Assembly: GCF_001746835.1 (NCBI RefSeq)
Contig: NZ_CP016094.1
Location: forward strand, 2,480,001-2,544,000
Origin: Lacunisphaera limnophila
GTDB lineage: Bacteria; Verrucomicrobiota; Verrucomicrobiia; Opitutales; Opitutaceae
Length of the DNA stretch: 64,000 nt
Direction: 5' to 3'
Part shown: positions 5,564-26,521 of the stretch, in pieces
Position numbering within the stretch: position 1 is the first letter of the stretch
Layout: every line of letters begins with the position of its first letter
Position numbers and translations under genes: made by a program
The notes under the pieces: model-generated
What the model was told of the DNA's origin: nothing
Databases searched by the model: none
What the model saw: only the letters and a program-made list of their open reading frames with translations

Positions 5564-7663
5564 TCATTCCGGGGCGTGGACGTAGAGGTGGTGCCGGCCC
5601 ACCTGCAGCCGCTGGTATCCCAGTCGGCGGGCAAAGCTCTCGTGCTCCGTGCCATTGGCGTACTCCAGCGCGACCTCGACCGGGTGCCAGTGATGTGACA
5701 GGTAGGCGGTCGGCGACCAAGCGGTGTAGAGCCTAAACGGAGACTGCGGGATAAATAAGGTGGGGCCGGCTTCATGGACGGCTGATTCCAGATACAAGCG
5801 GACCCGCGTCGTTTTCTCGCCCGGGGATTCATTGATGGAACGGTAGGGTATGAGTACGTTGCGGGCCCCCGTGCTGTAAGCCGCATACGAAATTCCTTTG
5901 GATGCGACGAGCCGGGGATTCGCCGGCAAACCGACGGCGTGGGATTTTGCCTCCCCGATGGTCTCCAGCTCCTGGCGCAGGTTCAGGTCTGCAGGGGGCT
6001 GCAACAGGATGTTAAACAATCGGCCATAACCGGGAGAACTGGCCGGGATCAAAATCAACCCGGCCAGCGTCGCGGTCAGGATATAAAAAAACCAGGGAGG
6101 ATGGAGGCGTTGAGCCGGATGGCCTGAATCCGGGGCCGGCGCGTGGGTTGGGGCCGGACGCCCAGTGGAGTTCGGCGGGGCAACCCCCAGATCGTCCTGG
6201 AGGCTGGGAGAACGCCCGGCGCGCGCCAGGAGGGTCACAATGGCCAGCCCGGCGGGGATGGCGAACAGCATGCGGTGAAAGATCAACACGGGTTGGTTCG
6301 CCTGCAGCAATTGTTGGAGAAAGGGGACGGCCACGACCGGAAGGCTGAGGGCAACCAACGGGGTGATTGTAAGCCAGGCGACCACGTGGTTGCGATAAAG
6401 CAGACAAATGCCGGCCAGCAGGTTCAGCAAGCCGCCGCCGCCCAGGATCATCAGCATGCGCTCAAATGCCGGGGACGATATTTCGAACAGGTTGAAGCCG
6501 TACCATGACGTCAGCCATCCTTGCGTGCGAATGCTGTCGTCGATCAACGCACTGCGCGGCCAATAAAGAATGGTGACTACGCTGGCCCCGGCCAGGGCCA
6601 GCGCCAAGGTAAGCAGGATGCCCCGGGCATGCCGGGATTGCCCGATGCGCCAGACGGACACGGCGGCGATCCCCAGGGCCGCAATGCCCAGGCCTTGGGT
6701 GTGGCTGAAGGCGGTGAACGCAATCAGCGCCAAGGCGGTGAGTGCGAACCGGCTGAGTGGATAAAGCGCAGGCAGGAGCGCGGCGCGCGGCTTGGGCCAG
6801 CTCAACCCGCCAAACCCGTTCGCTTGCGCGATCCTGATGCCCAGTGTGATCAGGGCCACGGCGCCGAGTTGCGCGAAGACCGAGCTGGATATCCCGTAAT
6901 AGCGGGAGAATCCGAACAATCCGTTGCCCGTGGTCAGGGCATTCAGCACCACGAAGACAAAGGCCGCGCGCCGCCCGAGCCCGGTGGCCTGTGCCAGGCG
7001 GAAGTATTGCCAGCACAGCAGCAGGCTGCAGCCCGTGGCGTAGGCATTGAGCCACGTCAGTTGCCGCAGCGGCGAATCGATCTGGCCGACCAGGCTGTAG
7101 GCCAGGAAATAGCTGGATTTCGTCCACGCGTAGTGCTGGTTGACCGCTGCTTGGATGGACCACTCGTTGATGCGGCTATAGTGCTCCCACGTATCGGCGG
7201 GATACTCGAGGTATACACCGGGAACAGCGAACACCAACGCCAGGCCAAACCAAGGCAGGATCGCCCAGAGGGCCGAAGCCGCTGGGGAAAAACGGGCAGT
7301 CCCAGCCAGCGGGGACGCGTGGGCTTGCCACCAGCTGCGGAGCGCCACCGCGCCGAGGGCCAGATGCACCGCATGCAGCACCCAGTACACGTGGAGGAGG
7401 GCCGGTGGCAGGAAGAAGGAGGTCGGGACAGCAGGCGGGGCCAGCCCGCCGGCGGTGGCACCTTGCTCCAGCCCTTCGCCGAGGCCGGCCGGATTCACTC
7501 GCCAGGCCAGCAGGGCGTATAGCAGGTAGACGGCAAGGTAGGGGATGAAGAAAGCCCAGCCGCTCCCGAAGTATCGTTGCAGATAAACGCCGGCGTTGTT
7601 TCGGGCCAAGGGCCGGAAGGCGGGGAGGCGGGAGGCCGACGGGCCGTCTGCGGAAGGCAACAC
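5564..7663 (-). CDS. Large polytopic membrane protein of a polysaccharide locus, function unknown
   Basis: The 699-residue protein has roughly 12-13 hydrophobic segments spread from residue 35 to about 535, then a soluble C-terminal part of about 160 residues. I do not recognise a named family. Size and layout resemble integral-membrane (GT-C-like) glycosyltransferases or flippase-associated proteins. Loops between the early helices contain the aromatic and charged residues usual for GT-C, but I could not assign a catalytic Asp/Glu. The start is a GTG at 7663. It is encoded against the flanking sugar genes, so it has its own promoter. Confidence 0.7.
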   Translation of the reverse strand: MLPSADGPSASRLPAFRPLARNNAGVYLQRYFGSGWAFFIPYLAVYLLYALLAWRVNPAGLGEGLEQGATAGGLAPPAVPTSFFLPPALLHVYWVLHAVHLALGAVALRSWWQAHASPLAGTARFSPAASALWAILPWFGLALVFAVPGVYLEYPADTWEHYSRINEWSIQAAVNQHYAWTKSSYFLAYSLVGQIDSPLRQLTWLNAYATGCSLLLCWQYFRLAQATGLGRRAAFVFVVLNALTTGNGLFGFSRYYGISSSVFAQLGAVALITLGIRIAQANGFGGLSWPKPRAALLPALYPLSRFALTALALIAFTAFSHTQGLGIAALGIAAVSVWRIGQSRHARGILLTLALALAGASVVTILYWPRSALIDDSIRTQGWLTSWYGFNLFEISSPAFERMLMILGGGGLLNLLAGICLLYRNHVVAWLTITPLVALSLPVVAVPFLQQLLQANQPVLIFHRMLFAIPAGLAIVTLLARAGRSPSLQDDLGVAPPNSTGRPAPTHAPAPDSGHPAQRLHPPWFFYILTATLAGLILIPASSPGYGRLFNILLQPPADLNLRQELETIGEAKSHAVGLPANPRLVASKGISYAAYSTGARNVLIPYRSINESPGEKTTRVRLYLESAVHEAGPTLFIPQSPFRLYTAWSPTAYLSHHWHPVEVALEYANGTEHESFARRLGYQRLQVGRHHLYVHAPE

Positions 7664-7710
7664 GCCGCAGTGAACAATGGCGGCGCACCCCGCTCAACCC
7701 TCAACTTATG

Positions 7711-7749
7711 GCCGGGTGGTTTACCCCGGCAGGGCGGGACCTCGTCCCG
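7711..7749. repeat. Two adjacent small hairpins upstream of the WbpM-type gene
   Basis: Between the divergent genes lie GCCGGG (7711-7716) pairing with CCCGGC (7725-7730), and CGGGAC (7735-7740) pairing with GTCCCG (7744-7749) around a CTC loop. Neither is followed by a T run, so they are not terminators. They could be leader structures or a REP-like element. Evidence is base pairing only, and chance pairing is easy at this GC content. Confidence 0.25.
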
Positions 7750-7797
7750 GGCTTTGCACTTGCGAGGTGCGGCCGCCCCTTGGTTTACTGCCCACTA

Positions 7798-9810
7798 ATG
7801 AAAGCGTTTCTCAGCGGTATAGGTCTGCGCTTCTGGGTGACGGTTTGCGCCTACGTGGCAGTGCTCACTGTATCCTTCTACCTGGCCTATGAGCTGCGCT
7901 TTGATTTTGCCTTGCCGGCGGAATTCCAGGTGGAGCGACTGCGATTGCTCCCCTACGCAGTGGCGGTGAAATTTCTGGGCCTGGTCCTGCTCCGGCAGAT
8001 GGGCAGCATGCTGCGTTACTTCAGCATCCCGGATTTGATCCGCGTCACCACGGCGATGGCGGTGAGCAGCGCCCTCTTGATTGCCCCGCGCTTGCTCGGC
8101 CAGGCCGATTACGTGTTTCCGCGGGGCGTGCTCTTGATCGACCTGCTGCTGAGCGTGGTGGGGCTCTGTGCCTTCCGGATCGGACTGCGGGTTTATCAGG
8201 AACGAGGCATTGCGGGGCAAGCGGGCGCGGGTCACCGCGTCCAGGAAATCGTCATCGTCGGAGCCGGCGACACCGGGGCGTCCCTGGCCAAGGAGCTCCT
8301 CTCCAAGCCGGCGCGCGGTCTGAAGCCCGTGGCCTTTCTGGACGACGACCCGGACAAGCGGGGGCGCTTGGTGCACGGCATCCCCGTGCTCGGTCGACCG
8401 GATGATTTCAGCCGCGACCGGTTTCCGGAAGTCCACACCGTGGTCGTGGCCATGCCCTCCGCAGCGCAGCGGCGGGTGAAGGAGATCGTGCTCCGGCTCG
8501 TGCAACTTGGCTGCAAGGTGGAGATCATTCCCGCCATCGAGGACCTCGCTTCAGGTCGGGCCAAGGCGAGCCACCTCCGGGCGGTTGAGGTGGAGGATCT
8601 GTTGGGGCGCGACGCGGTCTCGCTTGATACCACTGCGATCCGCCGGTTTGTGGAGAATAAGGTCGTCATGGTCACCGGAGCCGGCGGGAGCATCGGCGCC
8701 GAGTTGTGCCGCCAGATCGCCCGGCTGAATCCCCAGCGGTTGCTCATGGTGGAGCAATCGGAGGTCAGCCTTTTCCAGATTGAGCAGGAAATGAACGAAC
8801 TCGGCATGGGTGCGATCTCCACCCCCCTGGTAGGCAGCATCCTCGATCAGGTCCGCATGAACGACATCTTTTCCCGCTTTCGTCCCCAGGTGGTCTTCCA
8901 CGCCGCAGCCCACAAGCATGTCTACATGATGGAGCGGCAGCCCTCGGAAGCCGTCCGGAACAACAGCATCGGCACCCGCCTGCTGGGTGAGATCGCCGCG
9001 GCCTTCAAGACGGAGGCCTTTGTCCTGATATCCACCGACAAGGCCATCAATCCCACCAATGTCATGGGCGCGAGCAAGCGGCTGGCAGAAATCCATCTTC
9101 AGGCCCTGCAAGCCCGGTTGCTGAAGGCGGAGGCCGGGGCACAGCGGGCGGAGGTGATGACCGTCCAATCGGCGCCCGTCACACGCGAGGCCGGGTTCGC
9201 CGTCGCGGCCAAATCAGGCCCGAGGCGGGAGCCGGTTCGTGCCGGCAGCGGTGATCTGGGCCCGGCCGGTGAAGCGGTCTCAACCAAGTTCATGGCCGTG
9301 CGCTTCGGGAATGTGCTCGGTTCTTCGGGCAGCGTGGTGCCCATTTTTAGAAAGCAGATAGCCGCCGGGGGGCCGGTCACGGTCACGCATCCCGATGTCA
9401 CCCGATATTTCATGACGATCCCCGAAGCGGTTGGACTGGTCATGCAGGCTGCGGTCATGGGCAAGGGCGGGGAGATCTTCGTCCTGGATATGGGGCAACC
9501 GGTCAAAATTGCGGATCTGGCCAGACAGATGATCGAGCTGAGTGGTCTCGCCGTCGGTGATGATATCGAAATCAAGTTCACCGGGCTGAAGCCCGGGGAG
9601 AAATTATACGAGGAATTGCAGCATCAGGACGAACGGCATCTGCCGACCGAGCACCCGCGGGTCATGCGTTTTGTTCCCAGCGGCGACGCCACAGCCGCCA
9701 GCGCCCAGGCCATCGATCAACTCGAGCCGATCCTCTACACGGTCAGCCCCAATCCGATCAAGGAGCAGATCAAGAGCATCATCCCCGAATATACTCCCTA
9801 TTTGGAGTAG
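7798..9810 (+). CDS. WbpM/FlaA1-type membrane NDP-sugar 4,6-dehydratase
   Basis: The 670-residue protein has N-terminal membrane helices (about 1-125), a CoA-binding-like Rossmann domain (IVIVGAGDTG near 150) and a C-terminal extended SDR domain with VTGAGGSIG near 291 and LISTDKAINPTNVMGASK near 410-427. The SDR tyrosine is replaced by methionine (M423, with K427), the hallmark of WbpM/FlaA1 4,6-dehydratases, which make UDP-4-keto-6-deoxy-GlcNAc-type sugars. VRFGNVLGSSGSV and the C-terminal GEKLYEEL also match. Residues about 442-494 form an Ala/Gly-rich insertion not usual at this place. An in-frame start exists at 7708, but ATG 7798 begins at the expected N-terminus. Confidence 0.9.
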   Translation: MKAFLSGIGLRFWVTVCAYVAVLTVSFYLAYELRFDFALPAEFQVERLRLLPYAVAVKFLGLVLLRQMGSMLRYFSIPDLIRVTTAMAVSSALLIAPRLLGQADYVFPRGVLLIDLLLSVVGLCAFRIGLRVYQERGIAGQAGAGHRVQEIVIVGAGDTGASLAKELLSKPARGLKPVAFLDDDPDKRGRLVHGIPVLGRPDDFSRDRFPEVHTVVVAMPSAAQRRVKEIVLRLVQLGCKVEIIPAIEDLASGRAKASHLRAVEVEDLLGRDAVSLDTTAIRRFVENKVVMVTGAGGSIGAELCRQIARLNPQRLLMVEQSEVSLFQIEQEMNELGMGAISTPLVGSILDQVRMNDIFSRFRPQVVFHAAAHKHVYMMERQPSEAVRNNSIGTRLLGEIAAAFKTEAFVLISTDKAINPTNVMGASKRLAEIHLQALQARLLKAEAGAQRAEVMTVQSAPVTREAGFAVAAKSGPRREPVRAGSGDLGPAGEAVSTKFMAVRFGNVLGSSGSVVPIFRKQIAAGGPVTVTHPDVTRYFMTIPEAVGLVMQAAVMGKGGEIFVLDMGQPVKIADLARQMIELSGLAVGDDIEIKFTGLKPGEKLYEELQHQDERHLPTEHPRVMRFVPSGDATAASAQAIDQLEPILYTVSPNPIKEQIKSIIPEYTPYLE

Positions 9811-15610: not shown

Positions 15611-16270
15611 ATGTCCAAGATCTTCCCGAAATCCGCCAACGCGCTGCCCCTGCAGATCCTGATTTTCCTCGGTATCCTGGGTGGTGTCGCGGCGGCAGGC
15701 ATCACCTACTACGCCACTCCGGCCTATCTGCGCGTCGGCTACGCCCCGGTTCAGCCGGTGCCGTTCGACCACAGCCTGCACGCCGGCCAGCTCGGCCTCG
15801 ACTGCCGTTACTGCCACACTTCCGTCGAGAAGTCCGGCACCTCCAGCGTCCCCGCGGCCCAGACCTGCATGAATTGCCACAGCGCGATCAAGGCCCAGAG
15901 CCCGCTGCTGGAGCCCGTCCGCCAGAGCTACCAGACCGGCGACCCGGTGCCGTGGGTCAAGATCCACGCCACGCCCGACTACGTCTACTTCAACCACTCC
16001 GTCCACGTGAACCGCGGCGTCAGCTGCGTCGAGTGCCACGGCAAGGTGAATGAGATGCAGGTCGTCCAGCATGACCAGCCGCACAGCATGAGCTGGTGTC
16101 TGGACTGCCACCGCGACCCCGCCGCCCGCGTCCGCGCCCCCGAGGACGTCTTCAATCTCGATTCCCTCCGTTTGGCCGACCAAGGCCCCGAGGGACTTAA
16201 GAAAGCCAAGGATTTCGTCGAACACGCCAAGATCATGCCGCCGCAGAGCTGCTCCGGTTGCCATCGCTGA
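15611..16270 (+). CDS. actA: Alternative Complex III subunit ActA, pentaheme cytochrome c
   Basis: The 219-residue membrane-anchored cytochrome has one N-terminal helix (about 11-35) and five CxxCH heme sites: C65-H69, C86-H90, C139-H143, C163-H167 and C214-H218. The last lies one residue from the C-terminus. This matches ActA, the pentaheme subunit of the quinol:cytochrome c oxidoreductase ACIII. It passes electrons on the periplasmic side from the ActB iron-sulfur clusters to the monoheme acceptor. It is the first gene of the operon, and its stop overlaps the actB start (TGATG). Confidence 0.95.
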   Translation: MSKIFPKSANALPLQILIFLGILGGVAAAGITYYATPAYLRVGYAPVQPVPFDHSLHAGQLGLDCRYCHTSVEKSGTSSVPAAQTCMNCHSAIKAQSPLLEPVRQSYQTGDPVPWVKIHATPDYVYFNHSVHVNRGVSCVECHGKVNEMQVVQHDQPHSMSWCLDCHRDPAARVRAPEDVFNLDSLRLADQGPEGLKKAKDFVEHAKIMPPQSCSGCHR

Positions 16271-19200
16271 TGAAACGCAAATTTGATCATTCCGCCCCCG
16301 CGCAGCGCGACCTCTCCGGTCCGAAATACTGGCGCAGCCTCGACGAACTGGCCGACACGCCCGGCTTCCGCGAGCACCTAGCCCGCGAATTCCCCGAGGG
16401 CGCGTCCGAGCTGAACGGCGTCGACCGCCGCCAGTTCATGCGCCTGATGGCCGCCTCGTTCGCCCTCGGCGGCCTCGGCCTCGCCGGCTGCCGCCGCCCC
16501 GAGAAACACATCCTGCCCTACGGCAAGTCCGTCGAGTACACCGTCCCCGGCCTCCCGCTCTATTTCGCCACGGCCATGCCGCTGCGCAAGTCGGCCATCC
16601 CGCTCGTCGCCGAGACCCACCAGGGCCGCCCGACCAAGCTCGAGGGTAACCCCAGCTACGCCCCGCACGGTGGCGCCAGCTCGCTGCTCGCCCAGGCTTC
16701 CGTCCTCGACCTCTACGATCCCGAGCGCGCCACGACGCACACCGCCGCCGGCCGCACGCTGAAGGTCGCCGACGTCAACGATCTCCTCGCCCGCATCCGC
16801 GCGACCTACGCCGGCAACGGCGAGGGCCTCGCGTTCCTGGCCGATGAGTCCTCCTCGCCGACCCGCGCCCGCCTCATCGCGAAGCTGAAGAAAGAATTCC
16901 CCCGCGCCATCTGGTCCGAGTATGAGCCCGTGCAGGACGAGCCGCCGGTCGCCGCCGCCCAGGCCGCCTTCGGCCGCAACGTGAAGCCGGTCTACCGCTT
17001 CGCCAAGGCCAAGCGCATCGTCAGCCTCGATGCCGACTTCTTCCACGCCGAGGCCGGCGCGCTGTACTACTCGCGCGATTTCGCCAAGGGCCGCCGTGTC
17101 GCGACCAAGGAAGACGCCGATAAGATGAACCGCCTTTACGTGGCGGAGAGCGGGTTCTCCCTCACGGGCAGCATGGCGGACCACCGCCTGCGTCTCGCCA
17201 GCAACCACATGCTGGCCCTCGCCGCCGCCCTCGCGGGCAAGGCGCTCAACACTTCCGCCTACGAGTCTCTGGCCAAGGGCCTGGACATCAATCCGGCCTG
17301 GGTCGAGCAATGCGCCGCCGATCTCGTCGCTCACAAGGGCGAGTGCCTCGTGGTCGCCGGAGCCCACCAGCCCGCGCAGGTCCACGTGCTCGCTTACGCG
17401 ATCAACGCCGGCCTCGGCAACATCGGGAAGACGATCGACTTCGTCGCCGTCGAGCCCGCCGGCGCCTCGACCATCACCGCCCTCGCCACCGCCATCAAGG
17501 GCGGCGCGGTCAAGACCCTCTTCATCCTCAACGGCAACCCGGCTTACAACGCGCCGGCCGACCTCGATTTCGGCGCGCTGCTCAAGTCCGTGCCGGAGGT
17601 CATCCGCTACGGCTACTATCAGGACGAGACCTCCGCCCTGTCCGGAACCCACTTGGCCGCCACTCACTACCTCGAGTCGTGGGGCGACGCCCGCACGGTG
17701 GACGGCACGATCGTGCCGGTCCAGCCGATGATCATGCCGCTCTTCAACGGCCTGAATGAGGTCGAGCTGCTGGCCCGCCTCGCCGGCGAGGCCAAACCCG
17801 ACGCCTATGAGCAGGTCTTCGCCACCCGTGGCGGCGACCGCAAGGCCTTCGAGAAATTCCTGCACGACGGTCTGGCCGAGGGTTCGGCCTACCCGGCCGT
17901 CAGCGTTTCGTTTGATTCGGCCCGCGCCGGCGCCGCGTTCGCCTCGAACCCCGCCTTCGTCGCCCTCTCCAGGGACAACCTCGAGATCCGTTTCGCCACC
18001 GACCACAAGATGGACGACGGCCGCTTCGCCAACAACGGCTGGCTCCAGGAGTGCCCGGACCCGATGACCAAGATCGCGTGGGACAACGCGATCCTCGTCA
18101 GCCCGCGTCTCGCGAAGGATCTCGGCATCGTCCCCGGCGGCAGCCTACTCCAGGTCGCCCGCAAGGAAGTCGCCGAGTTCAAGATGGGCAAGGAGAACGC
18201 CTTCATCGGCGAGGTCACGGTGAACGGCCGCAAGGTCACCGGCCCCCTCCACATCCAGCCCGGTCTTTCGAATTACACCATCGTGCTCCCGCTCGGCTAC
18301 GGCCGCAGCGTGACGGGCCACGTCGGCACCGGCGCGGGCTTCAACGCCTACGCGGTCCGCACCAGCGACGGCATGGGCTTCATCACCGGCGCCGCCATCC
18401 GGGTGACGGCCGAGCGCCAGCTGCTCGCGAACACCCAGGAACACTGGTCGATGGAAGGCCGCGACATCGTGCGCGAGGCCAACGTCGAGGAATTCAAGTC
18501 GAACCCGGCCTTCGTGGACGGCATCGGCATGGAGTCCCACTCGCCGGCCATCCTCGGCGCGGACAAGGACAAGCCGCTCGCCTTCATCGCCACCGAGACG
18601 CCCCGCGGCAACTCGCTCTACGAGACCCCGAATTTCGACGGCATGCACCAGTGGGGCATGTCGATCGACCTGAACACCTGCATCGGCTGCAACGCCTGCA
18701 TCATCGCGTGCCAGGCGGAGAACAACATCCCGATCGTGGGCCGCGACCAAGTGCAGCGCGGTCGCGAAATGCAGTGGATCCGCCTTGATCGCTACTATTC
18801 TGACGGCCGGGCCGACGCCGAGGCGTTTGGCGCCGAGGGCAACACGGTGCTGCCGGAGGACCCGCAGGTCTCCATGCAGCCCATGACCTGCCAGCACTGC
18901 GAGCTCGCCCCGTGCGAGACGGTGTGTCCGGTCAACGCCACGGTGCACGACGACGAGGGCATCAACACGATGGCCTACAACCGCTGCATCGGCACCCGCT
19001 ATTGTGCGAACAACTGTCCGTACAAGGTCCGTCGTTTCAATTTCTTCGACTTCAACAAGCGCGCCACCGACGCCCTCTACATGGGCCCGCTCGGTCACCA
19101 GAAGGAAATGCCCGAACTGGTGAAGATGGTGAAGAATCCCGACGTCACCGTCCGCATGCGCGGCGTGATGGAGAAGTGCACGTACTGCGTGCAGCGCATC

Positions 19201-19572
19201 CAGCAGGCCAAGATCGCCCAGAAGCGGAAGGCCGGCGCCACCGGTGACGTCCTCATCCCCGACGGCTCGTTCAAGGTGGCCTGCCAGCAGGTCTGCCCGG
19301 TCGAGGCCATCGAATTTGGCAACATCAAGGACGAGGCCAGCAAGGTTTCGCAGTTGAAGGCCCAGGAGCGCGACTACGCGGTGCTCGGCTACCTCAACGT
19401 CCGCCCCCGCACCACCTACCTCGGCAAGCTCCGCAACCCGAACCCGCACATGCCGGACTATTCCGCCCTCCCGCTCAGCCGCGTGGAGTACAACCAGAAG
19501 AACGGCCACGCCGACCATGGCGCCCCGGCCGCTCACGCTGACCACGGTCACACCGACGGAGGGAAGCACTAA
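16270..19572 (+). CDS. actB: Alternative Complex III subunit ActB, Fe-S protein with vestigial molybdopterin domain
   Basis: The 1,100-residue periplasmic subunit has an N-terminal twin-arginine signal (R53-R54 in RRQFMRLM) followed by a hydrophobic stretch ending in LAGC (C74), a lipobox-like site. Residues about 75-750 are the molybdopterin-oxidoreductase-like part, which in ActB is known to carry no cofactor. The C-terminal part has the ferredoxin motifs [42 protein letters not shown] and [10 protein letters not shown], expected for three 4Fe-4S and one 3Fe-4S cluster. The C-terminal tail is His-rich. ATG 16270 overlaps the actA stop by one base; an in-frame TTG at 16258 is less likely. 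Confidence 0.95.
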
Positions 19573-21005
19573 TGGGCGCGCACGCATCCGACCATCCGGC
19601 CCCCGCCATCCTCGGCGAGGTCAAGCCCACGCCGCTGCCCCGCGCGGTGCTGGTGCACAATGACCGCGACTTCAAGTGGATCACCGACAAGATATGCGGT
19701 ATCGTCGAAGGCACGACCCCCGCTTGGTGGTGGTGGTGCTTCGGCATCGCCTCCCTGATCGCCTCGTTCACCGTCGCCGGCCTGATCTACCTCGTGTCCA
19801 CGGGCGTCGGCGTCTGGGGCCACGCGAACCCGGTCAACTGGGCCTGGGACATCGTCAACTTCGTGTTCTGGATCGGTATCGGCCACGCCGGCACCCTCAT
19901 CTCCGCGATCTTGTGCCTCCTGCGCCAGAAGTGGCGCACGTCCATCAACCGCGCCGCCGAGGCCATGACGATCTTCGCCGTGGTCTGCGCCGCGATCTTC
20001 CCGGTCTTCCACGTCGGCCGCATCTGGTTCGCCGTGATGCCCGGTTACCTGTTCCCGTTCCCCAACTCGAACGGCATCTGGCAGAACTTCCGCTCCCCGC
20101 TGGAGTGGGACGTGTTCGCGGTCTCGACCTACGGCACGGTGTCCTGCCTCTTCTGGTACATCGGCCTGATCCCCGACCTCGGCACGATGCGCGACCGCTT
20201 CACCGCGGCCGGCAACCTGCTCAAGGCCCGCATCTACGGTTTCTTCGCCATGGGCTGGCGCGGTTCCAACCGCCAGTGGAGCAACTACGAGATGGCCTAC
20301 CTCATCCTGGCCGGCATCTCGACCCCGCTCGTGCTCTCCGTGCACACGATCGTGTCGTTCGACTTCGCCGTCTCGCTCATCCCGGGCTGGCACACGACGA
20401 TCTTCCCCCCGTACTTCGTGGCGGGTGCCATCTTCTCCGGCTTCGGCATGGTGATGACGCTGATGCTCCCGCTGCGCGCCGTCTACCGCCTCGAGGACCT
20501 GATCACGCAGTACCACATCGACTGCATGTGTAAGATCACTTTGGCCACCGGCACCATGGTGGGCTACGCCTACTCGATGGAGTTCTTCATCGCGTGGTAC
20601 GGCGCGAACCCGTACGAGGGCTTCGCCTTCATCAACCGTGCGTTCGGCCACTACGCCTGGGCCTACTGGATCATGATTGGCTGCAACGTCATCACGCCGC
20701 AGTTCTTCTGGTTCAAGTCCATCCGCGAGAACACCGCGCTGGTCTGGGTCCTCTCGATCTTCGTCAACGTCGGCATGTGGTTCGAGCGCTTCGTGATCAT
20801 CGTCACGTCGCTTGCCCGCGACTTCCTGCCGTCGAGCTGGGGTTACTACTCCCCCTCGATCGTCGAGATCTTCACGTTCTTCGGCACCTTCGGTGTCTTC
20901 TCCTTCCTGTTCCTTCTCTTCATCCGCTTCGTGCCCATCATGCCGATGTCCGAGGTGAAGGCGGTCATCCCCGCAGCCGATCCGCACGGCGCGCACCACC
21001 ACTAA
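19572..21005 (+). CDS. actC: Alternative Complex III subunit ActC, NrfD-like quinol-site membrane protein
   Basis: The 477-residue NrfD/PsrC-family protein has about ten membrane helices; [14 protein letters not shown] and the charged, aromatic segments around [18 protein letters not shown] are typical of the family. ActC carries the proposed quinol-oxidation site next to ActB. The start overlaps the actB stop by one base (TAATG). Confidence 0.94.
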
Positions 21006-21017
21006 GAGGAACCCGCC

Positions 21018-21548
21018 ATGAAGACCAATTACGGAATCATCGCCGCCTTCGACACCGTCCCGTCGCTCTACCACGCCTGCGAGCAGGTGCGCGACGCCGG
21101 TTACTCGCAGTGGGACGCCATCACGTCCTTCCCCGTCCACGGGCTCGACTACGCCATGGGCGTGCGCCGCTCCAAGGTGCCGCGCTTCTCCCTCGCGGGC
21201 GGCATCACCGGTTTCTGCACCGGCATGTCGTTCATCTGGTGGGCCAACGCCTACGAGTATCCGCTGATCGTCGGCGGCAAGCCGTACTTCAGCCCGATGT
21301 TCGCCTTCCCGGTGTCCTACGAGCTGACCATCCTTTTCACCGCCTTCGCGACCATCGGCGGCATGTTCTTCCTGAATAAGCTGCCCATGCACTACCACCC
21401 GGTGCTCAAGGCCCCGCAGTTCGTGCGCGCGCTGGATGACCGCTTCTACATCGTGATCGAGTGCAACGACCCGAAATTCAACGCCGCCGAGACCCGCGCC
21501 CTGCTGGAGCGCGCCGGCGGCAAGGACATCGTCGAAATCGAGGAATAA
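21018..21548 (+). CDS. actD: Alternative Complex III subunit ActD (DUF3341)
   Basis: The 176-residue protein has an N-terminal soluble ferredoxin-like fold (YGIIAAFDTVPSLYHACEQV), two membrane helices (about 58-80 and 95-118) and a C-terminal acidic region. This is the ActD/DUF3341 pattern, a structural subunit. A good ribosome-binding site AGAGGA (21005-21010) precedes the ATG. Confidence 0.93.
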   Translation: MKTNYGIIAAFDTVPSLYHACEQVRDAGYSQWDAITSFPVHGLDYAMGVRRSKVPRFSLAGGITGFCTGMSFIWWANAYEYPLIVGGKPYFSPMFAFPVSYELTILFTAFATIGGMFFLNKLPMHYHPVLKAPQFVRALDDRFYIVIECNDPKFNAAETRALLERAGGKDIVEIEE

Positions 21549-21549
21549 G

Positions 21550-22182
21550 ATGCGCTACGCCTACTACACCCTCGCTTTCCTCGTCATCCTGACCCTCTCG
21601 GTCATGGGCTTCCGCGGCGCCAACGCCACGCGGCCCCCGATCGAGCTGTGGCCCGACATGGACCACCAGGCCAAATACAAGCCCCAGGCGGAATCCAAGT
21701 TCTTCGCTGACGGCCGCGCCGACCGCGCCATTCCGGCGGGCACGGTGCCGCGCGGCCGCACCACCGCGGCGGACGCCTCCTACCTGCGCGCCGACGAGGC
21801 GCACTACGCCGGCAAGAATGCCGACGGCTCCTTCGTCCGCGGTTTTCCTGTCCCCGTTACGCAGCAGCTGGTCGAGCGCGGCCAGAACCGCTACCAGATC
21901 TACTGCGCCCCGTGTCACGGTGCGGTTGGCGACGGCAACGGCATCACCAAGTCCTACGGCATGGTCGCCACGCCCACCTACCACGACGCCCGTCTCCGCG
22001 ACATGGCCGAGGGTGAGCTCTACAACACGATCACCAACGGCAAGAACACCATGCTCAGCTACGCTGACAAGTTGAGCCCCGACGACCGCTGGGCGGTCGT
22101 CGCCTATGTGCGCGCCCTCCAGCGCGCCGCGAACGCCACGATTGATGATGTCCCTCTCGAACAACGCGGAGGCCTGAAGTAA
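21550..22182 (+). CDS. actE: Alternative Complex III subunit ActE, monoheme cytochrome c
   Basis: The 210-residue cytochrome has one CAPCH heme site (C119, C122, H123) and a likely axial M167 in KNTMLSY. The N-terminus is a hydrophobic signal or anchor (about 5-22) without a lipobox cysteine, although ActE homologues are often lipoproteins. It takes electrons from ActA and hands them to a soluble carrier or oxidase. The ATG starts one base after the actD stop. Confidence 0.93.
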   Translation: MRYAYYTLAFLVILTLSVMGFRGANATRPPIELWPDMDHQAKYKPQAESKFFADGRADRAIPAGTVPRGRTTAADASYLRADEAHYAGKNADGSFVRGFPVPVTQQLVERGQNRYQIYCAPCHGAVGDGNGITKSYGMVATPTYHDARLRDMAEGELYNTITNGKNTMLSYADKLSPDDRWAVVAYVRALQRAANATIDDVPLEQRGGLK

Positions 22183-22183
22183 C

Positions 22184-23446
22184 ATGAGCGCACCCGCCTC
22201 CACCGCCTCTCTGGCGAACAAATTCCTGATCGCCGGCCTCGTCGGTCTCGCCGTCACCGCCGTCGGCCTCCTCGTGGCCGAGCCGCATGGTGTCGCCATG
22301 GCCTACCTCGTGGGTATCTCCTACTGGACCGCGGTCGCCATCGGCATGCTGATGCTGGTGATGATCCACCACATCTTCGACGCCGGCTGGTCCACCGTGA
22401 TCCGCCGCCAGTTCGAACACGGGCTGTCCGCCTTCAAGTGGCTGTTCATCCTGTTCATCCCGCTGATCATCTCGGCCTGGGTGAAGCCCGGCTTCGTCTG
22501 GCCCTGGATGGACCTCGACCACGCGCTGCACGGCGGCCACGGCACGGTCGGCACCGACATCCTTTACCAAAAGAAGGCCAGCTTCCTGAACGTCCCGATG
22601 TTCACCGGCATGACGCTCGCGTTCTTCGCCGGCTGGATCTGGCTCTCCGCCCGCCTGCGCAAGGCCTCGTTCTCGCAGGACAGCGACGGTGACCTCAAGT
22701 GGACCTACATGAACCGCAAGACCGCGGCCTTCGGCATCCCGATCAACGCGCTGGCCCTCAGCTTCGCTGCGATCTACTGGATGAAGAGCCTCGAGTACCA
22801 CTGGTTCTCCACGATGTACGGCGTCTGGTTCTTCGCTAACTGCATGCGCGCCGCCATGGCCGTCGGCGTGGTCATCACCTGGTGGCTCTACACCCGCGGC
22901 GACTACAAGGGCATCTTCAACACCAACCAGCTGCACTGCCTCGTGGCGCTCTCCTTTGCCTTCGTGGTGTTCTGGGCCTACGTCACCTTCTCGCAGTACT
23001 TCCTGATCTGGAACGCCAACGTCCCCGAGGAGACCTTCTGGTACAACATCCGTGAGTACGGCGACTGGAAGTGGGTCGGCCTGCTGCTCCTCTTCGGTCA
23101 CTTCTTCGTGCCCTTCCTCGCCTGGCTGTCCTATCGCCGCAAATCCACCCTGAAGCCCGCCCTGATCATCAGCATCTGGGTCGCCGGCGTCATCCTCGTG
23201 GACATCTGCTACAACGTCCTCCCGGCCCTCCGTGACGCGCACGAGAATCCCCAGCCGTTCCTTTCGCTCAACCTCCTGTGGGTGCTGACCTCCGTCATCG
23301 GCGTCGGCGGCATCTGCGCGTGGTCCTACCTCAAGAGTTTCCCGACCGCCAAGCTGATCCCGATCCGCGACCCGCGCATCGTCGAGTCGCTGACCCACCA
23401 CGAGGCCGCGGCCCCGGAGGCCTACCAGACCAAAGCCGCCCACTAA
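22184..23446 (+). CDS. actF: Alternative Complex III subunit ActF, NrfD-like membrane protein
   Basis: The 420-residue protein has about ten membrane helices and is the second NrfD-like subunit of ACIII, paralogous to ActC but shorter. It begins one base after the actE stop. Histidine-containing MIHHIFDAGWSTVIRRQFEHG near 63-83 marks the family. Confidence 0.92.
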   Translation: MSAPASTASLANKFLIAGLVGLAVTAVGLLVAEPHGVAMAYLVGISYWTAVAIGMLMLVMIHHIFDAGWSTVIRRQFEHGLSAFKWLFILFIPLIISAWVKPGFVWPWMDLDHALHGGHGTVGTDILYQKKASFLNVPMFTGMTLAFFAGWIWLSARLRKASFSQDSDGDLKWTYMNRKTAAFGIPINALALSFAAIYWMKSLEYHWFSTMYGVWFFANCMRAAMAVGVVITWWLYTRGDYKGIFNTNQLHCLVALSFAFVVFWAYVTFSQYFLIWNANVPEETFWYNIREYGDWKWVGLLLLFGHFFVPFLAWLSYRRKSTLKPALIISIWVAGVILVDICYNVLPALRDAHENPQPFLSLNLLWVLTSVIGVGGICAWSYLKSFPTAKLIPIRDPRIVESLTHHEAAAPEAYQTKAAH

Positions 23447-23449
23447 GCC

Positions 23450-23752
23450 ATGAGCGATTCCTCCTTCTCCTTCCCGCACCGCACGCCGGTCTTCACGGCC
23501 CTGATCGTGATTCTCTGCTTCGCGGCCTTTGGCTGGTTGGCCAAGCGCATCTACGTTCCCCATGCCGCCGACGTGCAGGCAGTCGAGGGCGTCCTCACTC
23601 CCGCCGAGCGCAAGGTCCGCCTCGCCGAGCTCCGCACCAAGGAGCAGTCCGCCGCCACGACTTACGGTTGGGTCGACCAGCCGAAGGGTGTTGTCCGCCT
23701 CCCGATTGACCGCGCGATCGAGCTCACCGTCCGCGACCACGCGAAGAAGTAA
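23450..23752 (+). CDS. Small single-span membrane protein between actF and the oxidase-like genes
   Basis: The 100-residue protein has one N-terminal membrane helix (about 13-33) and a soluble tail containing YGWVDQPKGVVRLPIDRA (73-90). I recall this WVDxxxGVVRxPIDRA motif from small proteins beside ACIII and cytochrome oxidase genes, but cannot name the function. It lies 3 bases after actF and 9 bases before the CcoN-like gene, so it is cotranscribed. It may be a structural linker or assembly factor, possibly filling the role of the small ActG-type subunits. Confidence 0.75.
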   Translation: MSDSSFSFPHRTPVFTALIVILCFAAFGWLAKRIYVPHAADVQAVEGVLTPAERKVRLAELRTKEQSAATTYGWVDQPKGVVRLPIDRAIELTVRDHAKK

Positions 23753-23761
23753 TCTCTGCCG

Positions 23762-25213
23762 ATGAATTCCAACGTTTCCCTCGCCCGGGCTGAGCAGGCG
23801 GAGATCGACTCCTCCGCCAAGTGGCCCGTGCTCGTCTTCTTCGGTTCCGCGCTGCTCTGGCTCCTCCTCGGGGGCGCCCTCCAGCTCGCCGCCAACATCC
23901 AGCTGCACACGCCCACGTTCCTCGCGGACTGCGTGTGGTTCACCCACGGCCGTCTCGCGCCCGCGGCGCAGAACGCGCTCGTCTACGGCTGGGGTTTCAA
24001 TGCCGCCTTCGCCTTCGGCCTCTGGCTGATGGCGCGCCTCTCGGCCACGACGCTCCGTCACGGCGGCTGGCTCTTTGTCGCCGCCAAGTTCTGGAACGTC
24101 GGGGTCACCCTCGGTATCGGCGGCATCCTCGGCGGCTACTCCAGCTCCTTCGAGTTGCTCGAGATGCCCCGCTACGTCACCCTGCTGCTGCTCGGCGCCT
24201 ACGCCCTGATCGGCGTCTGGGGCGTCACGACCTTCAGCATCCGCAACACGGAGAACACCTACGCCTCGCAGTGGTACCTCTTCGGCGCGGCCTTCTGGTT
24301 CCCCTGGATCTACAGCGTCGCCCAGGTGATGCTCTTCACCGCCCCCGTGCGCGGCGTGCTGCAGCCGGTGGTGAACGCGTGGTACGTCCACGGTCTCTAC
24401 AGCCTTTGGTTCCTGCCCGTGGCCATCGCCGCCATCTACTACCTCCTGCCCAAGCTCCTCGGTCGCGCGGTCAGCAACTACTACCTCGCCCCGCTCGCCT
24501 TCTGGTGGTTCGTGGTTGCTTCCGCCTTCGCGGGCGGCGCCCGCCTCGTCGGCGCGCCGGTGCCGGTCTGGATCCCGACCCTCGGCACCGTGGCCAACAT
24601 GGCCCTCGTCCTGCCGGCCGTCATCTTCGTCCTGAATTTCTTCGGTTCCCTCTCCGGCCGCACCCGCACGCTGGGCGGCAGCCTGATCCTCCGCTTCGTG
24701 CTGCTGGCCGTCGTCGGCCTCCTGCTCAACACGGTGGTCAACTTGCTGCTCTCGCTCCACGGCTTCGCCGCGGTGGCACAGTTCACCCTCTTCGGCGTCC
24801 TCCGCGACTGGTCGGCGCTCTACGCCACCTTCACCGTGGCGATGTTCGCCGCCGCCTATTTCTTCCTGCCCCGCCTGACTGGCAAGGACTGGCGGTCGTC
24901 CGCCCTGCTCCAGGCTCACTTCGGCGCCACGGTCCTCGGTGTGCTCATCATGGCCATCGGTCTGGCGGCCGGCGGCTGGCAGCAGGGCAGCCTGCTGCTT
25001 GACCCGGCGATCGCGTTTGGCGACGTCAGCCGGGCGATGACCAGCTGGCACACCACGGTCACGGTCGCCTCGGGCGTCCTGCTCGTCGGCCACCTGGCCT
25101 TCCTCATCAATTTCGTCTGGATCGCCTGCCCGATCAACTCGTCGGGCACGGCCAACGTCACCATCCCGGCCGCACCGGCTCTGAGCCTCGCGTCCAAGGA
25201 GGGCCACGCATGA
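23762..25213 (+). CDS. CcoN-like heme-copper oxidase subunit I lacking most metal-ligand histidines
   Basis: The 483-residue protein has about 12 membrane helices. Homology to cbb3 oxidase subunit I is visible in YYLLPKLLGRAVSNYYLAP (226-244), VPVWIPTLGTV and LPRLTGKDWRSSALLQAHF (369-387). H210 (WYVHG) matches one CuB histidine. The HH pair of the CuB site falls at A260-R261, the first heme ligand (RPLHTN in CcoN) falls at A69 in APAAQN, and no histidine at all exists between 334 and 385, where the HVH of the two hemes should be. As an oxidase it should be inactive. It overlaps the next gene by 4 bases and follows the ACIII genes in the same operon, suggesting a structural or proton/quinone-related role. 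Confidence 0.85.
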   Translation: MNSNVSLARAEQAEIDSSAKWPVLVFFGSALLWLLLGGALQLAANIQLHTPTFLADCVWFTHGRLAPAAQNALVYGWGFNAAFAFGLWLMARLSATTLRHGGWLFVAAKFWNVGVTLGIGGILGGYSSSFELLEMPRYVTLLLLGAYALIGVWGVTTFSIRNTENTYASQWYLFGAAFWFPWIYSVAQVMLFTAPVRGVLQPVVNAWYVHGLYSLWFLPVAIAAIYYLLPKLLGRAVSNYYLAPLAFWWFVVASAFAGGARLVGAPVPVWIPTLGTVANMALVLPAVIFVLNFFGSLSGRTRTLGGSLILRFVLLAVVGLLLNTVVNLLLSLHGFAAVAQFTLFGVLRDWSALYATFTVAMFAAAYFFLPRLTGKDWRSSALLQAHFGATVLGVLIMAIGLAAGGWQQGSLLLDPAIAFGDVSRAMTSWHTTVTVASGVLLVGHLAFLINFVWIACPINSSGTANVTIPAAPALSLASKEGHA

Positions 25214-25866
25214 AAAACGGTCTCGTCCTCTTCCTCGGCGTCTTCGCCACGCTCGCCCTGTCCTGGGCCGGGTTGTTGCTCGCCGCCCACAAGCAGATCG
25301 GCTCGCTCCCACAGTACAAGGACCCGATCGAGCAGACTCTTTTTCCCGCCCCGCTCACCGGCATCGCCGACCAGGGCCGCGCGGTCTATCAGGATCTTGG
25401 CTGCGTGAGCTGCCATACCCAGCAGGTCCGCTACGACGGCTTCGGTTCCGACCTGAAGCGCGGTTGGGGCGAACGCGGCAGCTTCGCCCGTGAGTACATC
25501 CGGGAGAAGACCGTGCTGATCGGCTCGAGCCGCCTCGGGCCTGACCTGCGCAACGTGGGCAACCGCCCGTATGCCAGCGCCGAGTATTTCCACGGCCTGC
25601 TCTACGCCCCCGAGTCCGTCGCCCCCGGTGGCAACAAGCCGGCGCACGCCTTCCTGTACGAGACCCGCGCGCTGGATGGCAACCAGGCGTCCTACAAGGC
25701 GCTGAAGCTCTCCAGCAAGTTCGCCCCGGGCGAGGGGCTGGAGGTCGTGCCGACCTACCGCGCCGAGGCGCTGGTCGCCTATTTGATGAGCTTGAAGGAC
25801 ACCTACAGTTATCCCGCCGAGTCCGGCCTGAACGCTCCCGCTCCCGCCAAGGAGGGCAGCCACTAA
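25210..25866 (+). CDS. CcoO-like membrane-anchored monoheme cytochrome c
   Basis: The 218-residue protein has an N-terminal membrane anchor (about 4-26), a heme site CVSCH (C65-H69) in the CcoO-type context LGCVSCHTQQVR, and LGPDLRNVGNR as in CcoO. The CcoO axial methionine motif (NMPxYPWL) aligns with NKPAHAFLY here, so lysine replaces the methionine and a histidine lies two residues on. The start overlaps the CcoN-like stop (ATGA). It probably forms the second subunit of the oxidase-like module and relays electrons from ActE. Confidence 0.85.
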   Translation: MKNGLVLFLGVFATLALSWAGLLLAAHKQIGSLPQYKDPIEQTLFPAPLTGIADQGRAVYQDLGCVSCHTQQVRYDGFGSDLKRGWGERGSFAREYIREKTVLIGSSRLGPDLRNVGNRPYASAEYFHGLLYAPESVAPGGNKPAHAFLYETRALDGNQASYKALKLSSKFAPGEGLEVVPTYRAEALVAYLMSLKDTYSYPAESGLNAPAPAKEGSH

Positions 25867-25867
25867 G

Positions 25868-26521
25868 ATGAGCTCGACCCCTGACAATCCGTTCAACTTC
25901 GAGGCGTCCGCCGCCAGCGACGAGAGCATCCGCGACGCCCACGCCAAGCTGCAGAGCCAGAAGCCGGACAAGCCCGGTGGCTATTCCGCGCTGCCGCTCG
26001 TGCTGCTCGGCCTGATGTGCGCCATCGTTTTCTTCGGCTCCATCTACATGGTGCATTATTCGATCCGCTTTGACCCGCTCGTGGTCAACAGCCACGCGAA
26101 CCGCGCCAAGCCCGGCAATACGGGCCCGGTGCAGCTGACCCGCGCCCAACTGGGCAAGTCCATTTACCTGGCCAACTGCGCCACCTGTCACCAGCCGAAC
26201 GGCATGGGTGTCCCGGGTGCCTTCCCCCCGCTGGCTGGCTCGGAGTGGGTCATGGGTAGCGAGGAGCGTATCATCCGCATCGTCATCCACGGCCTGCAGG
26301 GTCCGATCACGGTCAAGGGCAATGAATACAACAACGTCATGGCTCCTCTCGGCGCCGTGCTGAAGGACGAGCAGATCGCCAACGTGCTCTCCTACGTCCG
26401 TCAGGAATGGGGCAACACCGCCCCCGACGTCGAGCCGGCGACCGTCACGAAGGTTCGCGCCGACACGGCCACCCACACGGGTTACTGGACCGCCCCCGAC
26501 CTGCTGAAGATCGGTAACTGA
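25868..26521 (+). CDS. Membrane-anchored monoheme cytochrome c
   Basis: The 217-residue protein has a cytoplasmic N-terminus, one membrane helix (about 42-62) and a class-I cytochrome c domain with CATCH (C104-H108), the GxGVPGAFPPLAGS signature and a conserved axial M158 (NNVMAPLG). This resembles the cytochrome modules of CcoP or CoxB tails. It begins one base after the CcoO-like stop and is the last gene before a strong terminator. It could be the electron exit to a periplasmic carrier or a true oxidase elsewhere. Confidence 0.87.
   Translation: MSSTPDNPFNFEASAASDESIRDAHAKLQSQKPDKPGGYSALPLVLLGLMCAIVFFGSIYMVHYSIRFDPLVVNSHANRAKPGNTGPVQLTRAQLGKSIYLANCATCHQPNGMGVPGAFPPLAGSEWVMGSEERIIRIVIHGLQGPITVKGNEYNNVMAPLGAVLKDEQIANVLSYVRQEWGNTAPDVEPATVTKVRADTATHTGYWTAPDLLKIGN

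Follow-up and report, generated by a model that had tools for sequence, protein, structure and literature searches.

A CcoN-like oxidase core lacking most of its metal ligands in the Alternative Complex III operon of Lacunisphaera limnophila

In Lacunisphaera limnophila, the operon for Alternative Complex III (ACIII) carries a gene, here called N, whose product has the sequence and the predicted fold of the cbb3 oxidase subunit CcoN and retains one of the six histidines expected to bind heme b, heme b3 and CuB. At the same operon site, relatives encode either a version with all six histidines or a ligand-poor one. Comparison of these sequences identifies N as an ACIII-linked C-type oxidase core that has degenerated repeatedly, and not as a separate type of subunit from the start. 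We consider it probable that the degenerate core is kept as a cofactor-free scaffold, which would hold the cytochromes O and P by ACIII.

The ACIII operon and the CcoN homologue N

The window, as the whole analysed stretch of 64,000 nucleotides is called here, contains the genes in the order actABCDEF (15611-23446), SP, N, O and P (Table 1). Annotation of the neighbouring genes with Pfam and NCBIfam agreed with the operon setting given in the original prediction. Lying downstream of actF and SP and upstream of O and P, N belongs to the ACIII-linked CcoN-like family. It overlaps O by 4 bases, and the gap between actF and N amounts to 318 bases. No Pfam family was found for actF at E ≤ 0.001 and none for SP at E ≤ 1; in many loci, a homologue of SP separates actF from N.

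Table 1. Features of the ACIII operon in the window
Feature	Coordinates	Strand	Description
actA	15611..16270	+	multiheme c-type cytochrome of ACIII; Pfam Cytochrome_C7, NCBIfam QrcA-like
actB	16258..19572	+	molybdopterin-like plus FeS subunit; Pfam Fer4 domains; TIGR04519, QrcC/QrcB-like
actC	19572..21005	+	NrfD-like membrane subunit; Pfam NrfD 1.5e-22
actD	21018..21548	+	Pfam ActD 9.5e-63
actE	21550..22182	+	cytochrome c subunit; Pfam Cytochrome_CBB3/Cytochrom_C
actF	22184..23446	+	named from position and conservation; kept upstream of N in relatives
SP	23450..23752	+	100-aa small protein, single hydrophobic stretch (by eye)
SP/N junction	23753..23761	+	site of the FixS/CcoS-like gene in live relatives; no space for one here
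N	23762..25213	+	ligand-poor CcoN homologue of 483 aa (pseudo-oxidase core)
O	25210..25866	+	CcoO/FixO-like mono-heme c subunit; Pfam FixO 9.6e-17; CxxCH retained
P	25868..26521	+	cytochrome c, CcoP-like, one CxxCH; Pfam Cytochrom_C 1.9e-14

The frame of N is open over 483 aa. The protein matched Pfam COX1 with E = 3.3e-37 and the NCBIfam ccoN model TIGR00780 with E = 1.3e-25; the latter score (90 bits) lies under the curated cut-off of 583, which the genome's own CcoNO exceeds with 624.6 bits. In a phmmer search of PDB chains, the CcoN chains 9g6b_A (4e-18) and 3mk7_A (6.3e-17) were the best sequence matches. An AlphaFold2 model, computed from an alignment of the window N and 47 loci (A3), reached a mean pLDDT of 88.4 and a pTM of 0.90, and its comparison with 3mk7_A gave TM-scores of 0.87/0.90. 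Sequence and model together assign N a 12-helix CcoN-like heme-copper oxidase fold with homology over most of the length, in line with the original prediction of a CcoN homologue.

Alignment to the genome's own six-histidine CcoNO placed A69, H210, A260, R261, R348 and W350 at the six ligand positions, and S254 at the position of the active-site tyrosine in TM7. It had been predicted that H210 is the only ligand left, that alanine 69 replaces the first heme ligand and that the CuB histidine pair is A260-R261; all three readings hold in this alignment. The predicted lack of any histidine at 334-385 is exact, the flanking ones being 333 and 386 in the full set of nine (49, 62, 100, 210, 333, 386, 430, 444 and 482). 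The alanine at the first ligand position and an Arg-x-Trp at the TM10 positions are common to 21 loci of the window clade. Hence, the pattern is neither chance nor sequencing error, and the latter was ruled out as a source of the ligand loss. Internal stops were absent from the N matches of the window genus. N presumably carries neither b hemes nor CuB, and it is almost certainly incapable of being a normal oxidase.

Complete and ligand-poor versions at the same site

With P0001 as query, matches turned up in 50 of 57 relatives and, across the phylum, in 91 of 288 genomes; they include low-scoring ordinary CcoN. The locus scan used a six-histidine alignment (A2), and because its patterns contain TM6 residues, the 80 named loci are skewed to live copies. 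Copies with all six histidines are referred to as live, all others as dead or ligand-poor. Merging of identical N left 183 loci for comparison. The set of six histidines is complete in 106 of these, every one of them with the TM7 tyrosine (106/106), and incomplete in 77, two of the latter being artefacts (L102, the window genome's own CcoN, poorly extracted, and L146, a live copy cut at its 5' end). These two, L084 and L097 make up the four not-full rows without act context; in L084 the N is ligand-poor, and its act genes are found upstream at a distance of about 7.5 kb. Among the live copies, 24 of 106 lack ActF in the sampled DNA, three of which begin at the edge of the locus (L138, L153, L155). 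Seven loci (L002, L102, L097, L004, L105, L019 and L025) had been omitted from an earlier locus set.

With ActF upstream, 82 of 155 loci are live and 73 are ligand-poor, counts that are not natural frequencies given the uneven sampling of act operons. The truncated L025 is included in the 73 and excluded from later counts (n = 72). Thus, ligand loss is shared by many homologues adjoining actF, and in 63 of the 72 ligand-poor act rows no more than one histidine of the six is left. The original prediction had taken N for a new kind of respiratory subunit. What stands of this is a dead core that is kept, shared among relatives and set in an ACIII operon; the interpretation as a separate subunit type fails, because 82 of the 155 act operons have, in this position, a homologue with all six histidines, which the prediction itself had named as counter-evidence. 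The combination of six histidines and a cbb3-type tyrosine speaks against nitric oxide reductase, and for the live members, which have both, this identity was rejected.

Several individual loci deserve description. In L097 (genome G130, 7016-9182), a ligand-poor N is shortened to 346 aa and O and P are retained; no match to ActC was found in that genome. Genome G033 carries a live act-linked copy (L105) and a second live copy without act genes nearby (L104), with CtaD about 6 kb upstream. The extracted N frame of L134 begins far upstream (615 aa) and overlaps the SP match, so that an SP-N fusion is possible. The sole internal stop listed among the dead N matches, in G026, falls by its coordinates at the end of a 481-aa ORF.

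The residues that replace the ligands vary between dead lineages. The patterns, headed by INTERMEDIATES, are written in the order heme b (TM2), CuB (TM6), tyrosine, CuB (TM7) twice, heme b3 (TM10) and heme b (TM10). In two intermediates, L127 (HHSARHH) and L134 (HHQRHHH), CuB/Tyr residues are gone and the heme histidines are present; two others, L061 and L062 (both HNSQRYH), retain the low-spin pair alone. These four intermediates suggest, without proving it, that the CuB site and the tyrosine were lost before the b3 ligand, and the b ligands last.

The ligands were lost more than once. Mapped on trees of the operon partners, the live and dead states need 19 changes for ActC-E (108 rows), 20 for ActF (108 rows), 13 for ActB (69 rows) and 12 for O+P (107 rows), and the ActB-E tree (148 rows) contains 20 all-dead clades. 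Rows were hand-picked for the trees of 108 act loci and for the 113-row N tree, the act tree is midpoint-rooted because the planctomycete rows did not form one clade, and several branches have low support. The tree of N itself (113 rows, 53 dead) needs 4 changes and groups 48 dead sequences from many families. Its dead branches exceed the live ones in length by a factor of about 2.5 (median root-to-tip distance 2.64 vs 1.04 for live N), and hence it is not the best basis for a count. Even on this tree, the dead L235 falls with live copies from the family to which it belongs, L127 and L134 are placed among live Opitutaceae, and L061 and L062 group with the live L141 (support 73). Judged from these trees, four losses are the floor and 12 to 20 are likely; fewer could suffice if N was exchanged by transfer.

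Selection and gene content of ligand-poor operons

Selection on N was assessed by pairwise NG86 estimates, which are rough under codon bias. For the nearest pairs, dN/dS was 0.11-0.25 in the window clade (four pairs), 0.15-0.33 in other dead Opitutaceae (four pairs), 0.12-0.15 in the pmo-bearing clade (three pairs) and 0.025-0.057 in live N (four pairs); the ratios are not strictly comparable, the dS of the nearest pairs being 0.88-2.0 for live and 0.17-0.53 for dead N. Medians at dS < 1.2 were 0.30 for the window clade (104 pairs), 0.37 for other dead Opitutaceae, 0.14 for the pmo-bearing set and 0.22 for live N. With values well under 1 in all sets, these estimates indicate purifying selection on dead N that is real but weaker than on live N. 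A pseudogene was rejected on the grounds of the open frame and a dN/dS not near 1, which agrees with the predicted intact, non-decaying gene. Long open frames also occur in deeply separated dead lineages.

Live N has 134 conserved positions. Among dead copies, 58 of these are retained by at least 80% and 27 by at most 30%, the latter including five of the six ligands and the tyrosine. Within the window clade, 90% retain H210, and H386 occurs in 92% of dead N; Y226, Y227 and K231, like H386, reach at least 80% among the dead copies. Residues that are new in the window clade and fixed there include R261, Q340, R348, D349 and W350.

Live operons contain one further small gene, located between SP and N. 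A FixS-like ORF was found at this site in 82/82 live and 2/72 dead act operons, the two dead ones being the intermediate L127 and L247. Pfam FixS (PF03597) matched 19 of 21 sampled copies of the extra gene at E ≤ 0.1 (best 2.1e-9) and FixQ matched 10 of them (best 3.6e-4); of three copies scanned singly, one scored over the FixS cut-off. On the ActC-E tree, 14 independent pairs differ in ligand state, and the FixS-like gene is concordant in 12 to 14 of them and opposite in none (sign test, median p 0.00024). The profile, whose seed came from a live operon, could overlook divergent copies; most dead operons also have a shorter gap between actF and N, consistent with a real absence. Some dead operons have a long gap. 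The absence refers to the operon site and not to the genome, since a genome-wide search of the window genome with Pfam FixS gave no match although a true CcoNO is present, so that this model misses copies. According to one report, active cbb3 cannot be formed without CcoS, CcoH and CcoI (PMC7558416).

The cytochrome partners of dead N keep their c-type heme motif: CxxCH is present in 70/70 O, 66/66 P and 69/69 ActE of dead operons. In O, a methionine two residues past a conserved serine, which we take to be the axial ligand known from CcoO, occurs in 79/79 live and 52/70 dead copies. Ten dead O have cysteine at this position, nine of them rows of family f23. The window O has lysine there, a replacement that weakens the case for an electron relay through O in this organism; its sister L192 has methionine. 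The conserved methionine of P is present in all live and 94% of dead copies. Seven f23 loci (L066, L067, L069, L071, L072, L073 and L078) have a P-like cytochrome c match directly upstream of dead N, which in L069 is a 258-aa cytochrome c protein filling the long gap between actF and N. The same seven loci have cysteine at the methionine position of O.

Among operons for which at least 3.6 kb of sequence beyond N was available, same-strand CtaD lies downstream of N in 17/31 dead and 4/45 live ones, a contrast that is confounded by phylogeny, most dead cases coming from families f23, f24 and f27. In L082, for example, the order is SP-N-O-P-COX1-COX3-COX4-COX2, with small ORFs ahead of COX2. In the window, no ctaD follows N; the genome encodes a ctaD elsewhere, its COX1 looking aa3-like, and a true six-histidine CcoNO. 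When 80 genomes (54 ligand-poor, 26 live) were searched for COX1, a single match was obtained in G046 and G191 only, both of them live, and every one of the 54 ligand-poor genomes had at least two. The window genome also encodes a 474-aa COX1-like protein (G000:C1:413308-414498, minus strand; L005/L103) scoring 23.8 bits, under the Pfam cut-off, and located near a 584-aa COX1 homologue. By eye it has several histidines and no HH pair, and it may be another unusual relative of the oxidases.

Possible role of N and relation to described systems

N resembles CcoN of cbb3 oxidases in fold, in sequence and in its FixO-like and cytochrome c partners. It differs in having lost all but one of the six metal ligands, together with the active-site tyrosine, and its operon differs in being linked to ACIII and in having no FixS-like gene. 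Type C oxidases are described with a diheme subunit (PMC8361435, in part), whereas P has a single CxxCH. A C-type oxidase near ACIII in Opitutaceae and verrucomicrobial methanotrophs, reported in passages of PMC8498564 citing Refojo 2010, occupies the same operon position as N and most likely belongs to the same family; there it is called cbb3, the available passages being silent on ligand loss, whereas the N described here is ligand-poor.

We propose that N arose from a functional oxygen reductase of the cbb3-like (C-type) kind, encoded in the final part of an ACIII operon. The active site would have been lost first and the low-spin heme site later, in the window lineage and in several others independently, and the FixS/CcoS-like maturation gene would have disappeared alongside, the cell retaining other oxidases. 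The 12-helix body may then have been kept for a cofactor-free job, the anchoring of O and P beside ACIII; where aa3-like genes follow, N would probably lie between ACIII and aa3. Electrons would pass from the ACIII cytochromes to O and P and on to another oxidase. For this role N would have to form a physical complex with ACIII, acting as scaffold and relay. That it bridges to another oxidase in general is a more tentative suggestion, for which we see slightly less than an even chance. A model for such a unit is the ACIII-aa3 supercomplex of Flavobacterium johnsoniae, in which ACIII and an oxidase form one unit; there, a live aa3 touches ACIII and the passages at hand describe no dead C-type core (PMC8361435), whereas here the association is one of gene linkage. 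At the bc1-cbb3 interface of Rhodobacter capsulatus, membrane-anchored helices of CcoH and of cytochrome cy, one of the two a cytochrome, lie between complexes III and IV (PMC7876108, in part); these are single helices and N is a whole oxidase core. The scaffold reading is weakened by G130, which has a ligand-poor N, O and P without an ActC match.

Other explanations have to be weighed. N could be a slowly decaying relic, its frame open only since an interruption would harm translation of O and P. Its faster evolution on the N tree, the 4-base overlap with O, the shortened N of G130 and a dN/dS above that of the nearest live pairs would all fit, and yet dN/dS is well under 1 in every set, 58 of the 134 live-conserved positions persist across dead lineages, the window clade has fixed new residues and frames have stayed long and open in deeply separated lineages, which makes a relic unlikely. 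The newly fixed residues, and those kept in dead N (H386, Y226, Y227 and K231), could be taken to mean that N kept or gained another activity, with a different cofactor, a quinone or proton movement, and the persistence of H210 and H386 would suit another bound group. The substitutes at the ligand positions differ among the dead lineages, however, with no common new site seen, and we rate this activity as somewhat less likely even than decay. N might also have remained a terminal oxidase that uses unusual ligands, which would agree with its fold and its cbb3-type operon partners; with five of six ligands, the tyrosine and the FixS-like gene all gone, and further COX1 matches in each of the ligand-poor genomes that were searched, this is highly improbable. 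The cofactor-free scaffold is thus the reading we prefer.

The finding bears on published accounts of verrucomicrobial methanotrophs. A cbb3-type oxidase adjoining ACIII is reported for these organisms in passages of PMC6688271, PMC8498564 and PMC11102522; according to the same partial sources, the ACIII-linked cbb3 of Methylacidiphilum fits the observed high O2 affinity (PMC6688271), and all isolates but one have cbb3, aa3 and ba3 oxidases (PMC8498564). In family f24, pmoB was found in five of five genomes. The N of the five pmo-bearing genomes reads SESSHFV or ADAAHQT, with one histidine of six, and ligand-poor N in these relatives is followed by aa3-like genes. In G125, NosZ and NosD lie between the act genes and SP-N-O-P-ctaD, an arrangement like that described for strain IT6. 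No ccoN match in the five genomes reached the curated cut-off, which the CcoNO of the window genome does. The printed cbb3 of these methanotrophs would then be the ligand-poor gene. If the five genomes represent those organisms, the statements on cbb3 need revision, because no ccoN scores over the cut-off and the ACIII-linked copy keeps one of six ligands. Among titles, abstract openings and passages of the literature, no report of ligand loss in ACIII-linked CcoN was found, which is not proof that nobody has noticed it.

More broadly, respiratory chains may repeatedly turn an oxidase core into a cofactor-free 'pseudo-oxidase' that wires ACIII, via c-type cytochromes, to a working oxidase. Loss of the CcoS-like gene would mark each conversion, and the high-affinity ACIII-linked 'cbb3' of methanotrophs would be one case; we regard this generalization as plausible, if not quite as probable as its opposite. 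Genes for heme-copper oxidase subunit I serve as markers of aerobic respiration, and cbb3 as a marker of high affinity. The widespread N form clears the Pfam COX1 cut-off, yet reduction of O2 is not expected of it. A single locus with live, intermediate and dead forms constitutes a natural series on the non-catalytic roles of an oxidase core.
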